35,141 nt of DNA from the IMG/VR virus record IMGVR_UViG_3300029913_000067, positions 1 to 35,141 of that record, one strand, 5' to 3'. Position 1 is the stretch's first letter. The number at the start of each line of letters is the position of its first letter. The position numbers and the translations under genes were made by a program. Origin of the DNA: a virus. Below the pieces are notes generated by a model, which was not told the DNA's origin, searched no databases, and saw only the letters and a list, made by a program, of their open reading frames with translations. Of this stretch, positions 647 through 35,141 are shown piece by piece.

Positions 647-675
647 AGATTAAATAAAGTTGACGGAGCCGTCAA
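647..675 (-). promoter_or_regulatory. Promoter of the octapeptide-repeat gene
   Basis: On the minus strand TTGACG (675-670) is followed after 17 bases by TAATCT (652-647), giving a short leader to the ATG at 611. The layout and the ATTTAATCTG block around the -10 match the plus-strand promoter at 5559-5587 almost base for base. The -35 lies inside a palindrome (660-675). The assignment rests on pattern and repetition, not on mapping. Confidence 0.6.
660..675. promoter_or_regulatory. Operator-like palindrome, copy 1
   Basis: TTGACGGAGCCGTCAA is a 16-bp palindrome with a 2-base centre, extended to 18 bp by G659/C676. It covers the -35 of the leftward promoter and also the stop codon of the primase gene (672-674). 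It is one of four TTGAC-N6-GTCAA sites in the window. Confidence 0.6.
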
Positions 676-3053
676 CATTTAAATTGTAACAATTGAGATA
701 TTTGCGAATCAGTGTATGCGCGCGCAACATCGGCGGCGTTGGTAAGATGGTAGTGAGGAGATAATTTTGTGACGTAAAGTCGAGGTTTGCCGTTGTCTGG
801 CAACACAATGTTATTGACACGCCCTTGCGGTAATGCCGGATGCCAGTCATAACCTAGGCGTTGCAGAATGGTGCGGCGCTGATTGAGCGCAATTTTGTTG
901 TTTGTGTGGCGACGGTCAATCAATCTGTCCAGAGCAATCGACGAAATAAAACCACCGCAGAAGCCCTCCTGCCCCTGCGCGACGGCTTCCAATATTTCTT
1001 GATCGATCAATCCTTGCGACTCGCTAATAGCCTCATCAGTGCTGCTTGTGATCGGTGCAACCTGGCATGCGCTGGCGGGGTTAAATTCTGGCAGTATAGG
1101 GAACGTGTGCAGTAATTCAGACACGATGGCGTAACCATCTTCATTTTTTAACCAGTTGTATAAACCCGTGACGTATTCTGCCGTAATTCCGTCGCGCACC
1201 AGATCACCCTTCGATTGCTGAGCCGTAAATAATGGTGCAGCTCTTCGGTCATTCTGTGTTTTGGGAATACCGTTTTTACTGTTCCCATTTAGGATGTAAT
1301 TGCAGCATACGTACCTGGTTGCAGCGTCCACACCTTTGGGCTCAATTGACTGCTTTTCCCCGGTAATCATTGGCTTCAACAATTCCCACACTGATTTATT
1401 TGACTCACTGATGCAAATATCTTCAACGGCAATAAATATCTTATTCAACTGCCACATATTGAAATTTTTATGTATCTGGTCGGCCTTGGGCCAGTGTGAA
1501 TATTTATCGCCTACAGCATAATCCACACATCGACTAAATAGGGATTTACCATTACCTTCCACACCCTGAATAAATGGGCACCATTGAAATTTAATACCTT
1601 TGTATTGGACGACTGCAGACATGTAAGATAGTAAAATTAGCGCATCGCGTTCAACCGGCAATAATTTATGTAAATGATTTAAAAATGGCGCAGGGTCGCC
1701 GACCCGTCTCGGCATGTTGATCGGCACGTAAGAGTTAACTCGCGTCATGCCGCCAGTATTAACGATCATCCCCGGTTTTAAATCTGGTCTAAATGTGGAT
1801 GTATCCACCTTTGGTGCTCGGTAGAGTTGAGACTGCGTAAACGCTTCGAATGCATCCCTGCTTGATCGACGGTTCTCCACATCCATCTGAAACATAAACC
1901 CGCCGTAGGCAACGCGGAATTGATCTGGCTTTAACAGGTTTCCAGACGGTACCATGATGCGGTGCATGTCTTGAACGTATACGCATCCCTTAAACGTATT
2001 AATTTGCTCCTGTGCACCCAGATAGACATTCCCCTCAACCATTTTTGGCACGGGGGTCTCAATGTTGCCAGACTCGACCTGCTGAACTGGTTCCGGGTGT
2101 TTGTCAGTCAATACATCATGCGACAATCGGACGACTGCTAAAATGGTGCGCGGTAAATAATCCTCGCGCTCCCATTTCTGCCGGTAAAGTTGCGACTGCA
2201 TCATAATGCGCCGGATACGTTCGCAATTTTTACCGGTCCAAAATGACAGGTGCATGGCAAGCGCGCTATCAGCTTCACTATGCCCATACGGTTCGGTTGG
2301 ATGTGGAAAACACCGACCAAGTGCGGCAATGTCGGCATTCCACAGATCGGCAAAACTGGCTTTGTTACCGAACGCAGACGATGCTGATTGAGATCGTAAG
2401 GCACGTTGAATCAACAACTCATCATCTTCCGGCCCACGCCATTCTTCGCACGGCTCGGCTGTCCAGCCAGCGTCAGATTCGTTCGGATCGCGCATTAAAT
2501 GTCGCTTGACTAACTCAGCCAGACTATCACTATAGTTGCAACCATCGACTGAACCAACAGCGCCAACGCCAGTCAGTGCAACAAATCTTTTTTTAGTAAA
2601 CAAATCAAACAATTTATTGGTTTTATCTTTAATGCGCCGGTCGTCCGTTACCCGACCCATGCCGAAAAAATGCAAACCTCGGCCAGAGTGGCTAATCTCT
2701 ACGGCGCATCCTGGGAATAATGCCGCCAATTCCATCACGATTGGCGTATAGCCTGAGTCAGTAATGCATTCGTCCACGTCAATAAACCAAAACGGGTCTT
2801 GTTCGGTAAATACAAAGCCGACCCCATGATCCGGCCCAAATAATGTGGCGATACGAATGGCATCCTGAGCATTAATCCAAATCGACGGATCGTGCGCGTC
2901 AGTGCGGTACCCGTGCGTAGGATGAATAGGAAATTTATGCGTCTTGCCCGGGCGTGTTTCGTCCGGCACATATTGGCAGACGATAAACTGCTTAAAGTAG
3001 ACAAAGCCGCGTAGTGCGCCCGAAGCGCCTAACGCCTGAACTAAATTGTGCAT
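672..3053 (-). CDS. Primase/SF3 helicase (D5-like replication protein)
   Basis: This 793-residue protein would prime and unwind phage DNA. The N-terminal part looks like an archaeo-eukaryotic primase-polymerase domain: IDVDE (D92, D94) supplies the metal-binding acidic pair and SGRGLHFF (123-130) the conserved histidine (H128). A linker region follows, then an SF3 helicase domain with Walker A GVEGNGKS (497-504), a Walker B-like segment IFIAVED ending near 545, and a later asparagine-containing motif, LNGNSKNG. Phage replicative primase-helicases commonly have this arrangement. The ATG lies 2 bases after the stop of the HTH gene and has no clear Shine-Dalgarno, so translation is probably coupled. 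It is the last gene of the leftward replication operon. Confidence 0.88.
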   Translation of the reverse strand: MHNLVQALGASGALRGFVYFKQFIVCQYVPDETRPGKTHKFPIHPTHGYRTDAHDPSIWINAQDAIRIATLFGPDHGVGFVFTEQDPFWFIDVDECITDSGYTPIVMELAALFPGCAVEISHSGRGLHFFGMGRVTDDRRIKDKTNKLFDLFTKKRFVALTGVGAVGSVDGCNYSDSLAELVKRHLMRDPNESDAGWTAEPCEEWRGPEDDELLIQRALRSQSASSAFGNKASFADLWNADIAALGRCFPHPTEPYGHSEADSALAMHLSFWTGKNCERIRRIMMQSQLYRQKWEREDYLPRTILAVVRLSHDVLTDKHPEPVQQVESGNIETPVPKMVEGNVYLGAQEQINTFKGCVYVQDMHRIMVPSGNLLKPDQFRVAYGGFMFQMDVENRRSSRDAFEAFTQSQLYRAPKVDTSTFRPDLKPGMIVNTGGMTRVNSYVPINMPRRVGDPAPFLNHLHKLLPVERDALILLSYMSAVVQYKGIKFQWCPFIQGVEGNGKSLFSRCVDYAVGDKYSHWPKADQIHKNFNMWQLNKIFIAVEDICISESNKSVWELLKPMITGEKQSIEPKGVDAATRYVCCNYILNGNSKNGIPKTQNDRRAAPLFTAQQSKGDLVRDGITAEYVTGLYNWLKNEDGYAIVSELLHTFPILPEFNPASACQVAPITSSTDEAISESQGLIDQEILEAVAQGQEGFCGGFISSIALDRLIDRRHTNNKIALNQRRTILQRLGYDWHPALPQGRVNNIVLPDNGKPRLYVTKLSPHYHLTNAADVARAYTDSQISQLLQFKC

Positions 3054-13543: not shown

Positions 13544-14344
13544 TTATACCATCTCAGTCAACGCCGATCGGGTTTCGTTGTATCCGGTCATGAGCAATTT
13601 TGATCGTAACTCAAAAGTCATGTTTTTGTCTAAACCTCCGGCAAACCCGGTTTCAATGTACGCAAAATGTACCCCTGATTGCAACGCAAGCGCTCTATGA
13701 GCGTTTTCCGTAGCGCTGAGCATTAAGTCTAACAACCTAGGAGCAACGTTGAATAGCGATGATTTTGCGGCGCTGAATGGGCTTTGTTTTGAGACCAACT
13801 GAATCCCTAAACGCGGGATATCGTCTTTAACCAATAAATCGGCAGGAATGTTGTCAATCATACCACCATCCATCAATAATGCTTTGCCGATTTGCACCGG
13901 CGAATAAACGAATGGTATTGACGCAGAAGACCGCGCTGCTTTAGCAATGCTGATGTCAGGGGTGTTGTATTTATTAAAAACGAATGACGACTCTGACGCC
14001 ACGTCGGACGCCACAATGGTTAAATCGGTGCGCAATTGTCTGAACGTTTGATGTTTGGTGTAATTACCAATCAAAGACTGTAGATTTTTACCGTTGCAGA
14101 AACCACCCCGCATTAAGGCTGTCGGAGTAAATTTTAAAATATTTGACCAGTTTTGTGTTAACGCAATGTCGCGCATTTTAGTCAACGGCATGCCGGATGC
14201 GGCCAATGCAGAAATTAGAGAGCCGCCGGATGTACCTGCATATTCAACAGGTTTGTATCCGGCGTCTTGAATTGCCATAAGCGCGCCGACGTGCGCGGGG
14301 AATTTAAACCCCGAGCCCGACAAGGCGACGCGAATGGGTTTCAT
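13544..14344 (-). CDS. Patatin-like phospholipase at the end of the lysis cassette
   Basis: This 266-residue protein has the patatin Ser-Asp dyad: GTSGGS with the nucleophile S39 and DGG with D159, plus a glycine-rich oxyanion-hole segment near residues 9-14 (SGSGFK). Patatins hydrolyse acyl chains from membrane lipids. The ATG at 14344 overlaps the preceding stop (ATGA); an in-frame extension to 14374 would run into that gene. There is no signal peptide, so it would stay in the cytoplasm until membrane damage or act on the inner membrane. Being the last gene after holin-like, endolysin and lipoprotein genes suggests a part in lysis; an anti-defence or lipid-remodelling role is also possible. 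The enzyme family is clear, its role inferred. Confidence 0.85.
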   Translation of the reverse strand: MKPIRVALSGSGFKFPAHVGALMAIQDAGYKPVEYAGTSGGSLISALAASGMPLTKMRDIALTQNWSNILKFTPTALMRGGFCNGKNLQSLIGNYTKHQTFRQLRTDLTIVASDVASESSFVFNKYNTPDISIAKAARSSASIPFVYSPVQIGKALLMDGGMIDNIPADLLVKDDIPRLGIQLVSKQSPFSAAKSSLFNVAPRLLDLMLSATENAHRALALQSGVHFAYIETGFAGGLDKNMTFELRSKLLMTGYNETRSALTEMV

Positions 14345-14586
14345 GCGTGTTTGATGGCGGTGGCTGCCACCCATGCAGCATGCGCGGCAATGACTTGCTG
14401 AATGACCGCCGCTGATTGATCTGCGGTCACTACCCCGGATGATGACAGCGCGTTGATACCCTGTATCACATTGATGATTGCGGGGATCGAAGCGGCAATT
14501 GCCGCGTCTGCCGGATTGACTGCCGCCAATACACCGGCTGCTTCATCAATAACCGCTGTGGTTTCTGTTGTTGGTGCGTTATCCAT
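14341..14586 (-). CDS. Small Ala-rich hypothetical protein of the lysis region
   Basis: This 81-residue ORF starts at 14586 behind an AAGGAAA site. The sequence, beginning MDNAPTTETTAV, is Ala/Val/Ile-rich (AAIAASIPAIINVIQGINAL) and could form one hydrophobic helix or a helical bundle. It overlaps the patatin gene. It may be a small structural or membrane protein; no family is recognised. Confidence 0.55.
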   Translation of the reverse strand: MDNAPTTETTAVIDEAAGVLAAVNPADAAIAASIPAIINVIQGINALSSSGVVTADQSAAVIQQVIAAHAAWVAATAIKHA

Positions 14587-31419: not shown

Positions 31420-32445
31420 TTAATATTGGGCAGAGAGCAGCGTAAACGCTTCAGGACGAATACCCCAACCAGGCGTTGCACGTTGAGTGTACAGCACGGT
31501 TGTGCCACCATCAGCAATTGGCGTCGGGATTTCAGTCGGTGCAGCAACGTCAGTCAACATGACCGATGTAGCCAATTGATTAGGAGCCAGACCTGGGAAT
31601 TGATTGGTGTCAACCATCGGATTTTGACGGTTAATTTTCAATTCAGGAAAATTCATGATGATCAAATCGGTACCGCTTGCACCTTGCCCAATCAACGTAT
31701 CATCTGCCACAAATTCAATCTTGTCGCCACCCACGCGGTTCGCGATATCTTCAACCACACCTGCAGCAACATCCACACCGGCACCGATGCGTTGAAATTG
31801 CGTCAACGATACGATACCACCATAGCCGATCTGGCTGACAAAGCGTTGCGGCGCACAGAATGTCACGCGCAACGGTACGCCAATGGTGTTGGTGCGGACT
31901 TTAGCGGCACCAATCATATTCAGCAAAAATTGCGCTAATTGCCCGCTGTCCCACGTGGAGTACCCCGGATTACCGTTGGAGTCCGAACCCAGATTCTGAG
32001 TCGTCGCGCCGTTGGTATTGACCAGACCTTCGCCGTTTGTAGGATTGAAACCATACAGCAAAGCGTTACGCAATTGCTGCGCGATACCTTGACGTGCCGC
32101 CAGGCGCATACCTTCGGGCAAAGAATAACCCCAGTTTCCGGTTGCGGCAGTGTCAAAATTATCGTACTGTGCTCGGGTTTGCATACGATATGTCGGTGTG
32201 CTGATCATCGAAGGGATGATCGATGCGGATGGCAATTGATTTACTGTTGACTGATTGGCAGAAACCTGTGTAGTCAGTTGCAGTTTTTTTGCATAGACGT
32301 ACAGATCATTTTCACCGATACGAACCATCGGATTACCTGTAGCAAGCAGATCAAATGCGCCGGTTGCCAAACTGTACTGCATGATCAATTCGGGCATCAT
32401 GTAGTGAGGGTTTGCCGTAATAAAGCTAGGGGCTAATGCTGACAT
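31420..32445 (-). CDS. Major capsid protein
   Basis: This 341-residue protein is the probable major head subunit (HK97 fold), resembling the DUF2184 group. It has an acidic/aromatic first third (LYVYAKKLQLTTQVSANQST), QTRAQYDNFDTAATGNWGYS, the E-loop-like region GMRLAARQGIAQQLRNALLYG, and a C-terminal GWGIRPEAFTLLSAQY. It is followed by hairpins and preceded by a decoration-type gene. Size and order support the call. Confidence 0.82.
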   Translation of the reverse strand: MSALAPSFITANPHYMMPELIMQYSLATGAFDLLATGNPMVRIGENDLYVYAKKLQLTTQVSANQSTVNQLPSASIIPSMISTPTYRMQTRAQYDNFDTAATGNWGYSLPEGMRLAARQGIAQQLRNALLYGFNPTNGEGLVNTNGATTQNLGSDSNGNPGYSTWDSGQLAQFLLNMIGAAKVRTNTIGVPLRVTFCAPQRFVSQIGYGGIVSLTQFQRIGAGVDVAAGVVEDIANRVGGDKIEFVADDTLIGQGASGTDLIIMNFPELKINRQNPMVDTNQFPGLAPNQLATSVMLTDVAAPTEIPTPIADGGTTVLYTQRATPGWGIRPEAFTLLSAQY

Positions 32446-32461: not shown

Positions 32462-33100
32462 TTAAACTTCGCACAGAGCGACAGTATCGGTATAGATATA
32501 TGTCGCCACCCCGGTAGTCCCGTTGTAAGACACAGTTTTGTTTGCGTTTGATGACGGGCTGATGCTCAATACTTTGAACGATGTCGGTAACGCATAGTCG
32601 GTATTAGTTACCGTAATCCAGTTATTCGCCCAATTCCAGTAAAACTGGACATTCACTGCACCACCTTCAATGGCCGACACCGCTGCAGGATTCAAACGCA
32701 ACGGAATACGTGCGCCGGAACCGTTGCGATAGAAATTGACCGACATGCCTGGGCCATATGTCTGCGCCGGACTTTGAGGAGTCGTCAAACCAGCAAAAGC
32801 CTGGTTAACCACGCACCAGCAACTGATATCAGTTTCACCCGAGGTCGCAGCCAGCAATTGCGGCCCAAGCACACCAGTGCCAGGTACTGAACTTGACGTG
32901 ACGGTCGCCACATATTCAGTCATCGGCATCCCACCCCAAATTGGAGTTGTGTTGGCCGCAGCATAAACGCCCCCTGCCAATTTAAATTTAATCGCCGGAT
33001 CATCTTGCGCGTCACCCTGCGTATATCCGTTCGAATTTACATTAAATAACCCGCCAGCGTTTGTTGTCGCCATCGGGTTAAAAGAAATATTTGCACTCAT
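32462..33100 (-). CDS. Capsid decoration/cement-type protein
   Basis: This 212-residue beta-rich protein contains TNAGGLFNVNSNGYTQGDAQDDPA and FKLAGGVYAAANTTPIWGGMP (shown in parts: GYTQGDAQDDPA, YAAANTTPIWGG), a pattern I associate with phage structural cement proteins encoded between the maturation protein and the major capsid. It probably stabilises the expanded head. It lies 16 bases from the capsid gene. Confidence 0.7.
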   Translation of the reverse strand: MSANISFNPMATTNAGGLFNVNSNGYTQGDAQDDPAIKFKLAGGVYAAANTTPIWGGMPMTEYVATVTSSSVPGTGVLGPQLLAATSGETDISCWCVVNQAFAGLTTPQSPAQTYGPGMSVNFYRNGSGARIPLRLNPAAVSAIEGGAVNVQFYWNWANNWITVTNTDYALPTSFKVLSISPSSNANKTVSYNGTTGVATYIYTDTVALCEV

Positions 33101-33111
33101 AATTTCGCCCC

Positions 33112-34977
33112 TTAGCGTTTAGCGTTGTTTGCTGTATGAAATTCCATTGCACGGTATGGAGAACTCTTAAACTGGCCTAGCCAGCTATTAATATCACCAT
33201 AATATTTAGTAATGGTACGACCGGAACCGTCAGATGCTGTGCTACGAACTGCTTGCAATTGCCCGTCAGCGTAAGCCTTCGGTGATGTTGCATGTTTCAG
33301 AGCATCGGCATAAATTTTAGCTTCAAGCATGTTCAACGTGGTCGGGTCTTTTACGTCAGCCAGATTGATCGATTTGCAATCGTCGGAGTAATTTTGCAGA
33401 CCGCGCATTAAACGTTTGCGGTAATTCAGCAAAGTTTCACCAGACAGCGCACGGGATGCTGATTTACCGAAACATGCGTAAGCCGAATCTGCCTTGGCTT
33501 GAGCGTCAGCCATTGCCATTTCGTCGTCAGCGTCTTTTTTAGCCTTGTCTTCCATTTCTTTTTCTGTCAGATTTTCATCTTTTTTGCAGTCTTCGGCGTC
33601 TTTCTTATCCTTCGCCTCTTTAAGCGCTTCATCGGCATCTTTCTTATCCTTTGCCTCTTTTTCTTCGGCGTCTTTCTTTTCTTTAAGAGCCTCATCAGCG
33701 TCGGAAGCGCTACGCAGTGTTGGAGCAGGCATGTTTTTTTCCATGCTGTCCATACGTGACGATAGTCCGGTAACAAGCGTGGTCACACCATTAATTGCGG
33801 ACAGTAACTCACTAATCCCCGGCACTGAATTTTGAACCTGGGCGTCAGCTTTTGCGCCCGTTGTAATTGCATCGCTCATTTCTGACACCTCATTGTTAGT
33901 TAATAAAACACCATTTGCATCACCGCCTTTGTCCCACACACCGCGCCCGCCCTGCTCACTTGTGACTATCGCAATATGATCAATCAAAAAAGGTTGACCT
34001 TCGATCAATAACGGGTCTTCTCCTTCAACTCGCACAAGCATATTACCGCTCGCGTCGTTGAATACGACATTTGGGGACGTGCTGGTATTTTCTGGATCGG
34101 CGATAATTTTTGCAATCGCTTCATCCACATGGCACCGGGCAATACCCCAAATGTCGTCGCCTTTGATATATGGCAACATAATACTACCAATATTGCGTTT
34201 TGTGTATTCCTCAGATGACATTGCCGGGCCATCACCATCGCTCGGATGATCCATAATCACCGGCAATGCCTGACAACGTTTAAGGAAATTGTCATTTAAA
34301 TAAATTGACGGATCGCGCCAAACATATTCCTGATCTTTTGAGCGGTAGGCCATCCCCGTGCCAGTTATGCGAATAGCAAGCAATGTAATATTTGAATAAA
34401 ATTGTGGGCTGGGCAAAATACCGTCGGCCATCAGTTGGGCCACATCAAATTCAGTGCGAGCACCAGCAATTCTAAATGAAGCGATTAATCCGGGGTGTAG
34501 GGGGTTCGGGGCAGCGTCGGGCGCTGTCCACACAAACCCGGTTGATTCGTCGCAAATTTTAACGTCAAATTTGGGAACATCACGGGCGATGAATGTCTGG
34601 AAATGACCATCGTCGTGTAGTAATTTCAATGGCCCATCATAATCGAAACCGGTTTCTTCCAGTGTTTCGCGTCGGGCAGTTTGCGCCAGATGCTCGCCTT
34701 CTTCCTGATGACCACCTGGCAGGCCGAACACGCCCGGGTAATCGCCGCCGTTGCCGCGTCGCAATAGCAATGTCTCGCCTTCGGGCGTTATGAACATGAT
34801 GCCTGCTGCTGTAGCTTCTGAGGCATAGACTATTAGCGGGTTGTCAATACTGGAACCCGGCGCGTCATCAGCCGCAGCAAATTCCTTGCCAACAGATTGC
34901 GGCACGCCACCATAGCCGCCCGGAGTATGGGCAGCAGCTTCCATTAATCGATGCTGTGCTGGCGATGTTGACGGCAT
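33112..34977 (-). CDS. Nudix hydrolase fused to DUF2213-type capsid maturation/scaffold protein
   Basis: This 621-residue protein starts at 34977 behind an AAGG site. Residues 1-37 carry an AQHRLMEAAAHTPGG peptide found at ends of several phage head proteins. A Nudix domain follows, with box residues G89-x5-E95-x7-R103-E104-x2-E107-E108-x-G110 complete. A DUF2213-like region (about 170-360; GIARCHVDE, PVIMDHPS) is next, matching phage prohead protease/scaffold proteins. It is then very charged at 430-500 (repeated KDKKDADEALKE, scaffold-like) with a final folded part to 621. It presumably drives head assembly; the Nudix part may hydrolyse a nucleotide derivative. Confidence 0.8.
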   Translation of the reverse strand: MPSTSPAQHRLMEAAAHTPGGYGGVPQSVGKEFAAADDAPGSSIDNPLIVYASEATAAGIMFITPEGETLLLRRGNGGDYPGVFGLPGGHQEEGEHLAQTARRETLEETGFDYDGPLKLLHDDGHFQTFIARDVPKFDVKICDESTGFVWTAPDAAPNPLHPGLIASFRIAGARTEFDVAQLMADGILPSPQFYSNITLLAIRITGTGMAYRSKDQEYVWRDPSIYLNDNFLKRCQALPVIMDHPSDGDGPAMSSEEYTKRNIGSIMLPYIKGDDIWGIARCHVDEAIAKIIADPENTSTSPNVVFNDASGNMLVRVEGEDPLLIEGQPFLIDHIAIVTSEQGGRGVWDKGGDANGVLLTNNEVSEMSDAITTGAKADAQVQNSVPGISELLSAINGVTTLVTGLSSRMDSMEKNMPAPTLRSASDADEALKEKKDAEEKEAKDKKDADEALKEAKDKKDAEDCKKDENLTEKEMEDKAKKDADDEMAMADAQAKADSAYACFGKSASRALSGETLLNYRKRLMRGLQNYSDDCKSINLADVKDPTTLNMLEAKIYADALKHATSPKAYADGQLQAVRSTASDGSGRTITKYYGDINSWLGQFKSSPYRAMEFHTANNAKR

Positions 34978-35091
34978 TTAATAACCTTATAAATTTAACA
35001 GCAATTTGATGCAGGCGATGCCTTTAGAACCAACCGGGAACCGACTTAATCAGTCGTAAGGTGGTTAGTCAGACCAACCGCGACGGGCGAT
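34978..35091. other. Intergenic leader with possible hairpin
   Basis: The 114 bases contain the AAGG Shine-Dalgarno of the maturation gene. A nested inverted repeat is also visible: CGACT-5-AGTCG (35042-35056) inside AACCAACC/GGTGGTT (35028-35035 and 35060-35066). There is no T-run and no convincing promoter, so it may be a processing or attenuation site. Confidence 0.3.
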
Positions 35092-35141
35092 CTACTTCAC
35101 ATCATTTGCCGGTAATTTAGATTGTAAATGAATCTTGCCTT
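35092..35141 (-). CDS. Possible C-terminal end of an upstream head gene (partial)
   Basis: From the right edge the minus strand is open for 15 codons, ending HLQSKLPANDVK and a TAG at 35092-35094. The composition looks protein-like and this is where a portal or minor head gene would end, but the stretch is too short to be sure. Confidence 0.35.
   Translation of the reverse strand, partial: GKIHLQSKLPANDVK

Follow-up and report, generated by a model that had tools for sequence, protein, structure and literature searches.

A Nudix domain fused to a predicted capsid protease and scaffold in the head operon of a myovirus

Related head-gene systems

Nudix domains joined to phage head proteins have been described before. 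Iyer et al. (2022) reported Nudix fused to MuF, to portal, and to capsid-processing serine peptidase, grouped these head-protein fusions as T4 NudE-like, and proposed that they are packaged and injected (PMC9503650); DUF2213 is also associated with NUDIX in Pfam architectures (PMC8770471). In public records, gp4 of Klebsiella phage vB_Kpn_Chronis and pdc_04 of Pantoea phage PdC23 are already annotated as NUDIX hydrolase, and PHROG 6216 spans the fusion. We analyzed such a gene in a viral stretch of 35,141 nucleotides (IMG/VR record IMGVR_UViG_3300029913_000067, positions 1 to 35,141; hereafter, the window). A preliminary description of this DNA regarded a Nudix domain in a capsid protein as unexpected, a view that these sources do not bear out: The Nudix-protease fusion of the window gene is widespread in related phages and has already been noted in the literature.

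As in the fusions of Iyer et al. (PMC9503650), the Nudix domain of the window gene lies in one polypeptide with a predicted capsid-processing peptidase, in a head operon. Our data differ from their NudE-like grouping in that the two T4-type NudE proteins that we sampled fall on very long, poorly placed branches of the tree, and in that the proline associated with ADP-ribose substrates is missing here.

Chronis gp4, PdC23 pdc_04, and gp44 of Shewanella phage vB_Sb_QDWS have the same Nudix-protease-scaffold order as the window protein (38–40% identity to it) and, like the window gene, lie between the portal region and the major capsid gene. In Burkholderia phage Bcep781, a related Nudix domain (45–47% identity, Bcep781 group) is carried on the C terminus of the portal protein, gp17; the operon contains the PF06381 portal and DUF2213 protease families found in the window's relatives, with the protease as a separate gene. 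In Bm1, Nudix is a free gene that lies a short way upstream of the gene for the DUF2213 protease. Beyond the fusion family, the phage Nudix domains closest to that of the window protein include those of Bcep781 and Bm1. The DUF2213 protein of Escherichia phage Rac-SA53 (41% identity) shares the protease and C-terminal domains; it has no Nudix domain and begins at the protease, yet its record is noted "nudix."

T4 gp21 and herpesvirus assemblin (pUL26) resemble the window protease in predicted fold and in the order of the candidate catalytic residues, His…Ser…His. Herpes assemblin, too, is synthesized in one piece with a scaffold, and no Nudix domain is known in either T4 gp21 or the herpes proteases. 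This study adds an assignment of the protease to the gp21-like type, a test of whether the catalytic residues are conserved, a map of Nudix presence and absence, a negative result for the ADP-ribose motif, and a comparison of portal-fused (Bcep781) and free (Bm1) Nudix domains in related head modules.

The fusion gene and its domains

The window gene encodes a Nudix-protease-scaffold polypeptide of a myovirus. Its single frame runs from an N-terminal module of ~38 aa through a Nudix domain and a DUF2213-type domain to a charged coiled segment and, last, a conserved C-terminal domain. The preliminary description had placed a complete Nudix box, a DUF2213-like region, and a charged scaffold in this one frame, as our analysis confirms (box, G89-F111), and we are nearly certain of the anatomy as set out below.

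33112..34977, minus strand: Nudix-protease-scaffold fusion gene (621 aa plus stop; phrog_6216 covers residues 57-613, E=4.6e-139)
34864..34977, minus strand: N-terminal ~38-aa module MPSTSPAQHRLMEAAAHTPGGYGGVPQSVGKEF, residues 1-38 (phrog_16759, E=9e-8; stand-alone copies in jumbo phages)
34489..34818, minus strand: Nudix hydrolase domain, residues ~54-163 (Pfam and predicted structure)
34645..34713, minus strand: Nudix box G89-F111, GHQEEGEHLAQTARRETLEETGF (sequence and family alignment)
33892..34464, minus strand: predicted DUF2213-like protease domain of T4 gp21/herpes assemblin type, residues 172-362 (Pfam matches of relatives and structural match)
34246..34248, minus strand: H244, candidate catalytic His
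34072..34083, minus strand: S299-T300-S301-P302, candidate nucleophile motif
33976..33981, minus strand: D333-H334, candidate third catalytic residue
33475..33816, minus strand: charged Lys/Asp/Glu coiled segment, scaffold-like, residues 388-501 (sequence; helices in the model with a low-confidence middle)
33115..33474, minus strand: conserved C-terminal domain, residues 502-621 (alignment; helices in the model)
32462..33100, minus strand: 212-aa head-module protein, downstream from the fusion gene (phrog_6268)
31420..32445, minus strand: major capsid protein (phrog_264 major head protein, E=1.6e-6; weak PF09950 match)

The phage is contractile-tailed, with genes for tail sheath, baseplate, tail fibre, and endolysin, and the contig stops just upstream of the fusion gene. 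In a contig with an identical fusion gene (L018), the order is terminase, portal (PF06381), proteins of 116 and 271 aa, the fusion, the 212-aa protein, and the major capsid protein; closely similar head-gene orders are found in Shewanella, Pantoea, Klebsiella, and Yersinia phages. The portal ORF of another contig (L028:135-4655) is 1507 aa long, and its Pfam match is confined to the portal part, residues 55-360.

An in-frame TAA lies immediately 5′ of the fusion-gene ATG, and AAGG lies 7 bases upstream of the ATG. Across residues 73-260 of the window ORF, we found no Shine-Dalgarno-like site at any ATG, GTG, or TTG. The normal internal start after the Nudix domain that the preliminary description had named as a counterargument was thus not found, and a Nudix-less product from such a start is not supported in the window. 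The gene occurs unchanged on four more viral contigs, and two additional copies match it at ~90% identity; an assembly error therefore does not account for the joined frame. Ahead of the gene is an intergenic gap of ~117 bases (34978-35093, minus strand) with a possible inverted repeat, GGTTGGTCTGACTAACC; the gap is kept in the contigs with the identical gene and has diverged in L006, and in L019 it is ~3 bases.

The window protein and QDWS share the 38-aa module, which Chronis, PdC23, and the Yersinia phages do not have. The module could serve as a tag that directs proteins to the virion. Its pattern, MPSxSxxQxRLM...GVPQSVGKEF, is also seen in stand-alone proteins of ~53–58 aa in jumbo phages, among them PHIKZ165.1 of phiKZ and protein 51 of Klebsiella phage Eowyn, annotated "structural protein"; in Stenotrophomonas phage BUCT555, a stand-alone copy adjoins head genes. 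One relative (L099:5872-7767) has a different short segment in place of the usual module. Of the 55 family members, 13 contain DUF6321. In the examples L033:4346-6907, L051:5121-7652, and L058:5131-7797 (proteins of 840–890 aa), it lies between the N-terminal module and the Nudix domain and is accompanied by a short motif, DPCWxGYEQxGMKxKxGKxVPNCVP.

An AlphaFold2 model of the full fusion protein, built with 55 sequences, has two N-terminal helices, a confident Nudix domain, and a mixed domain at residues 172-362; beyond these, long helices flank a charged stretch of low confidence, and the C-terminal domain is helical-plus-strand. The structural matches listed for the whole-protein model are Nudix enzymes throughout.

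The DUF2213 region of the window protein is itself below Pfam significance for the PF09979 profile; it is assigned to DUF2213 because relatives match PF09979 (35/55 family members, best 8.9e-9) and because of the predicted fold. Folded alone, residues 172-362 gave pLDDT 88 and pTM 0.87. The first match of this model is T4 gp21 (Foldseek E=5.8e-3), which superposes as 5jbl with Z 9.9, rmsd 3.0, and 133 aligned residues at ~14% identity. Herpes proteases reach Z 5.3–6.9 (4v08, Z 6.9); since this is level with MCE-domain proteins, the gp21 match alone stands clear. Capsid proteases of the gp21/assemblin type have the catalytic order His-Ser-His/Asp, and H244, S299/S301, and D333-H334 follow one another in that order; all three sites are invariant in 55/55 sequences. 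A sequence search of the PDB with the protease profile gave no match, and profile comparison with the Bcep781 and Bm1 proteases was weak, all of them being linked via the DUF2213 Pfam family. Judging from the modeled fold and the conserved residues, we predict that residues 172-362 form a gp21/assemblin-like serine protease. Between the Nudix and protease domains, no cleavage site was identified.

Relatives with and without the Nudix domain

Searching viral contigs and prokaryote genomes with profiles recovered 136 distinct relatives: In 93 the Nudix domain is fused, and in 43, L178 among them, it is not; these are best-scoring matches, and their ratio is no census. A search for other Nudix-DUF2213 fusions, as suggested in the preliminary description, turned up more than 80 distinct fused relatives.

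On the protease tree, Nudix presence takes at least three changes: in one enterobacterial prophage clade, in L070, and in L178. L070 has no Nudix domain and retains the N-terminal module. In L178 (5621-5953), the Nudix domain is a separate ORF of 111 aa that overlaps the start of the protease ORF by ~34 bases, an arrangement that is either a natural split or a frameshift. No Nudix domain was found anywhere in 21/21 records of the enterobacterial prophage clade, which is Rac-SA53-like, and exactly one per record, the fused one, was found in 20/20 fused records searched (some records may be incomplete). The domain therefore appears dispensable in the Rac-SA53-like clade.

The separate, overlapping ORFs of L178, together with Nudix-less homologs that begin right at the protease domain, lend some support to an annotation artefact, in which two genes have been read as one, or in which most of the product is made from an internal start and has no Nudix domain. 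However, the frame is unbroken in 93 distinct proteins, and the internal starts after the Nudix domain in the window have no Shine-Dalgarno-like site; we consider such an artefact extremely improbable.

In L104 (5989-7600), on a Kluyvera genomosp. 3 chromosome, the fusion gene is broken up into three ORFs. In L088 (5581-7819), one ORF holds the protease, and the ORF next to it holds the scaffold/C-terminal part.

Nudix conservation and possible role

The Nudix domain of the window protein matches PF00293 at residues 56-161 (E=1.2e-13, 51.7 bits; cut-off, 21.1 bits), and its predicted model has the Nudix fold (best match 4dyw, Z 16.6, rmsd 1.8, 115 aligned). The box is complete: G89-F111 fits GX5EX7REUXEEXGU, with Thr at the first hydrophobic position. 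Among 84 distinct fused relatives in the family alignment, REx2EE is intact in 83, the sole loss being an E-to-K change in L102, so the loss of Nudix residues in all relatives, which the preliminary description had named as a refutation, was not seen. A degenerate Nudix domain was considered for L036, L041, L056, L058, and L090-L094, which fail the strict motif, and was rejected: They have a one-residue loop insertion, some of them also without the first Glu, and REx2EE is intact. Nudix-domain dN/dS in computable pairs is 0.04–0.25, similar to or somewhat above that of the protease. From the retention of REx2EE and these ratios, it is most likely that catalysis, or at the least the metal site, is the reason why the domain has been retained.

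The Nudix and protease trees broadly agree, and we do not claim a general swapping of Nudix cassettes between backbones. Local recombination is likely in one pair, L022 and L031, whose Nudix domains differ (dS 1.0) far more than the parts on either side.

The preliminary description had also suggested a binding fold reused in assembly, that is, a Nudix module for binding or oligomerization in the procapsid with little or no catalysis. Non-enzymatic Nudix domains do exist (PMC5389931), and this one is embedded in an assembly protein. The retention of the catalytic REx2EE in 83/84 nevertheless disfavors structural reuse, as does a whole clade of close relatives that have the same protease-scaffold wholly without the Nudix domain, and we regard it as quite improbable.

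ADP-ribose pyrophosphatases have an X-loop proline ~15–17 residues past the Nudix box (PMC5389931). In the 84 distinct fusions, position +15 is F or Y in 79 and P in only two, and P is not one of the residues commonly found at +16 or +17; the absence of this proline weakens the case for ADP-ribose as the substrate. ApnA hydrolases have an X-loop tyrosine, for which position +18 is a candidate counterpart: 77 of the 84 fusions have Y or F there, the window protein having F. The nearest structures were set aside as a guide to substrate, since MutT, Ap4A, decapping, and ADP-ribose enzymes all occur among the top matches with Z scores spread over ~1–2 units. Among the window ORFs scanned, no other NAD- or ADP-ribose-related gene was recognized.

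Portal C termini point into the capsid, as do proteases linked to a scaffold. Nudix fusions to these two proteins point to a single compartment for the enzyme, and the domain is probably present inside the procapsid. We give roughly even weight to the reading that the window protein is a capsid-assembly protease-scaffold carrying a Nudix pyrophosphohydrolase as head-loaded cargo that hydrolyzes NDP-X. Scaffold assembly would bring the Nudix domain into the procapsid, self-cleavage by the protease during maturation could release it, and some copies may stay behind in the head and accompany the DNA into the next host. There they would hydrolyze a nucleotide of the NDP-X type: perhaps one that serves as an alarm or immune signal, or else a modified nucleotide or a dinucleoside polyphosphate. 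That the enzyme reaches the cell and acts on a nucleotide of the host is possible, though we place this somewhat short of an even chance. That the fused records searched have no other Nudix supports the head-loaded reading. Against it weigh the Rac-SA53-like clade, which does without the enzyme; the free domain in Bm1 and the split-off one in L178, which show that its role does not require fusion; the missing X-loop proline, which tells against ADP-ribose; and the failure to identify a cleavage site ahead of the protease.

Alternatively, the domain may be a late enzyme of the producing cell's cytoplasm, where it would clean or remodel nucleotide pools while DNA is packaged, or clear immune nucleotides at a late stage, without delivery to the next cell; the fusion would then tie its expression to an abundant late protein. 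Its position in the head operon fits this, as do the stand-alone Nudix near the protease in Bm1 and the separate upstream ORF in L178, which imply that the activity need not be in the head. However, if location did not matter, it would be odd to find the domain independently fused to two head proteins that face the interior, and we find a purely cytoplasmic role rather doubtful.

If the Nudix enzyme is instead head-loaded, the tie between enzyme and scaffold is genetically simple and widespread, with the Nudix-less, split, and portal-fused versions as natural controls, and the shipping of nucleotide-clearing enzymes in phage heads is testable in the culturable PdC23 and Chronis. A broader version of head loading would make the front of the protease-scaffold a general cargo dock, at which Nudix, the 38-aa module, DUF6321, and others are loaded, cut free, and delivered with the DNA, the Nudix domain then destroying a nucleotide immune signal other than ADP-ribose; this is speculative, and we think it unlikely.

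The window also has genes for DNA polymerase, primase, helicase, and exonuclease. A primase-like protein at 672-3053 (minus strand) combines an NrS-1 polymerase HBD domain with DUF5906, and a patatin-like phospholipase (13544-14374, minus strand; PF01734, E=8e-30) is encoded between the DNA polymerase and endolysin genes.
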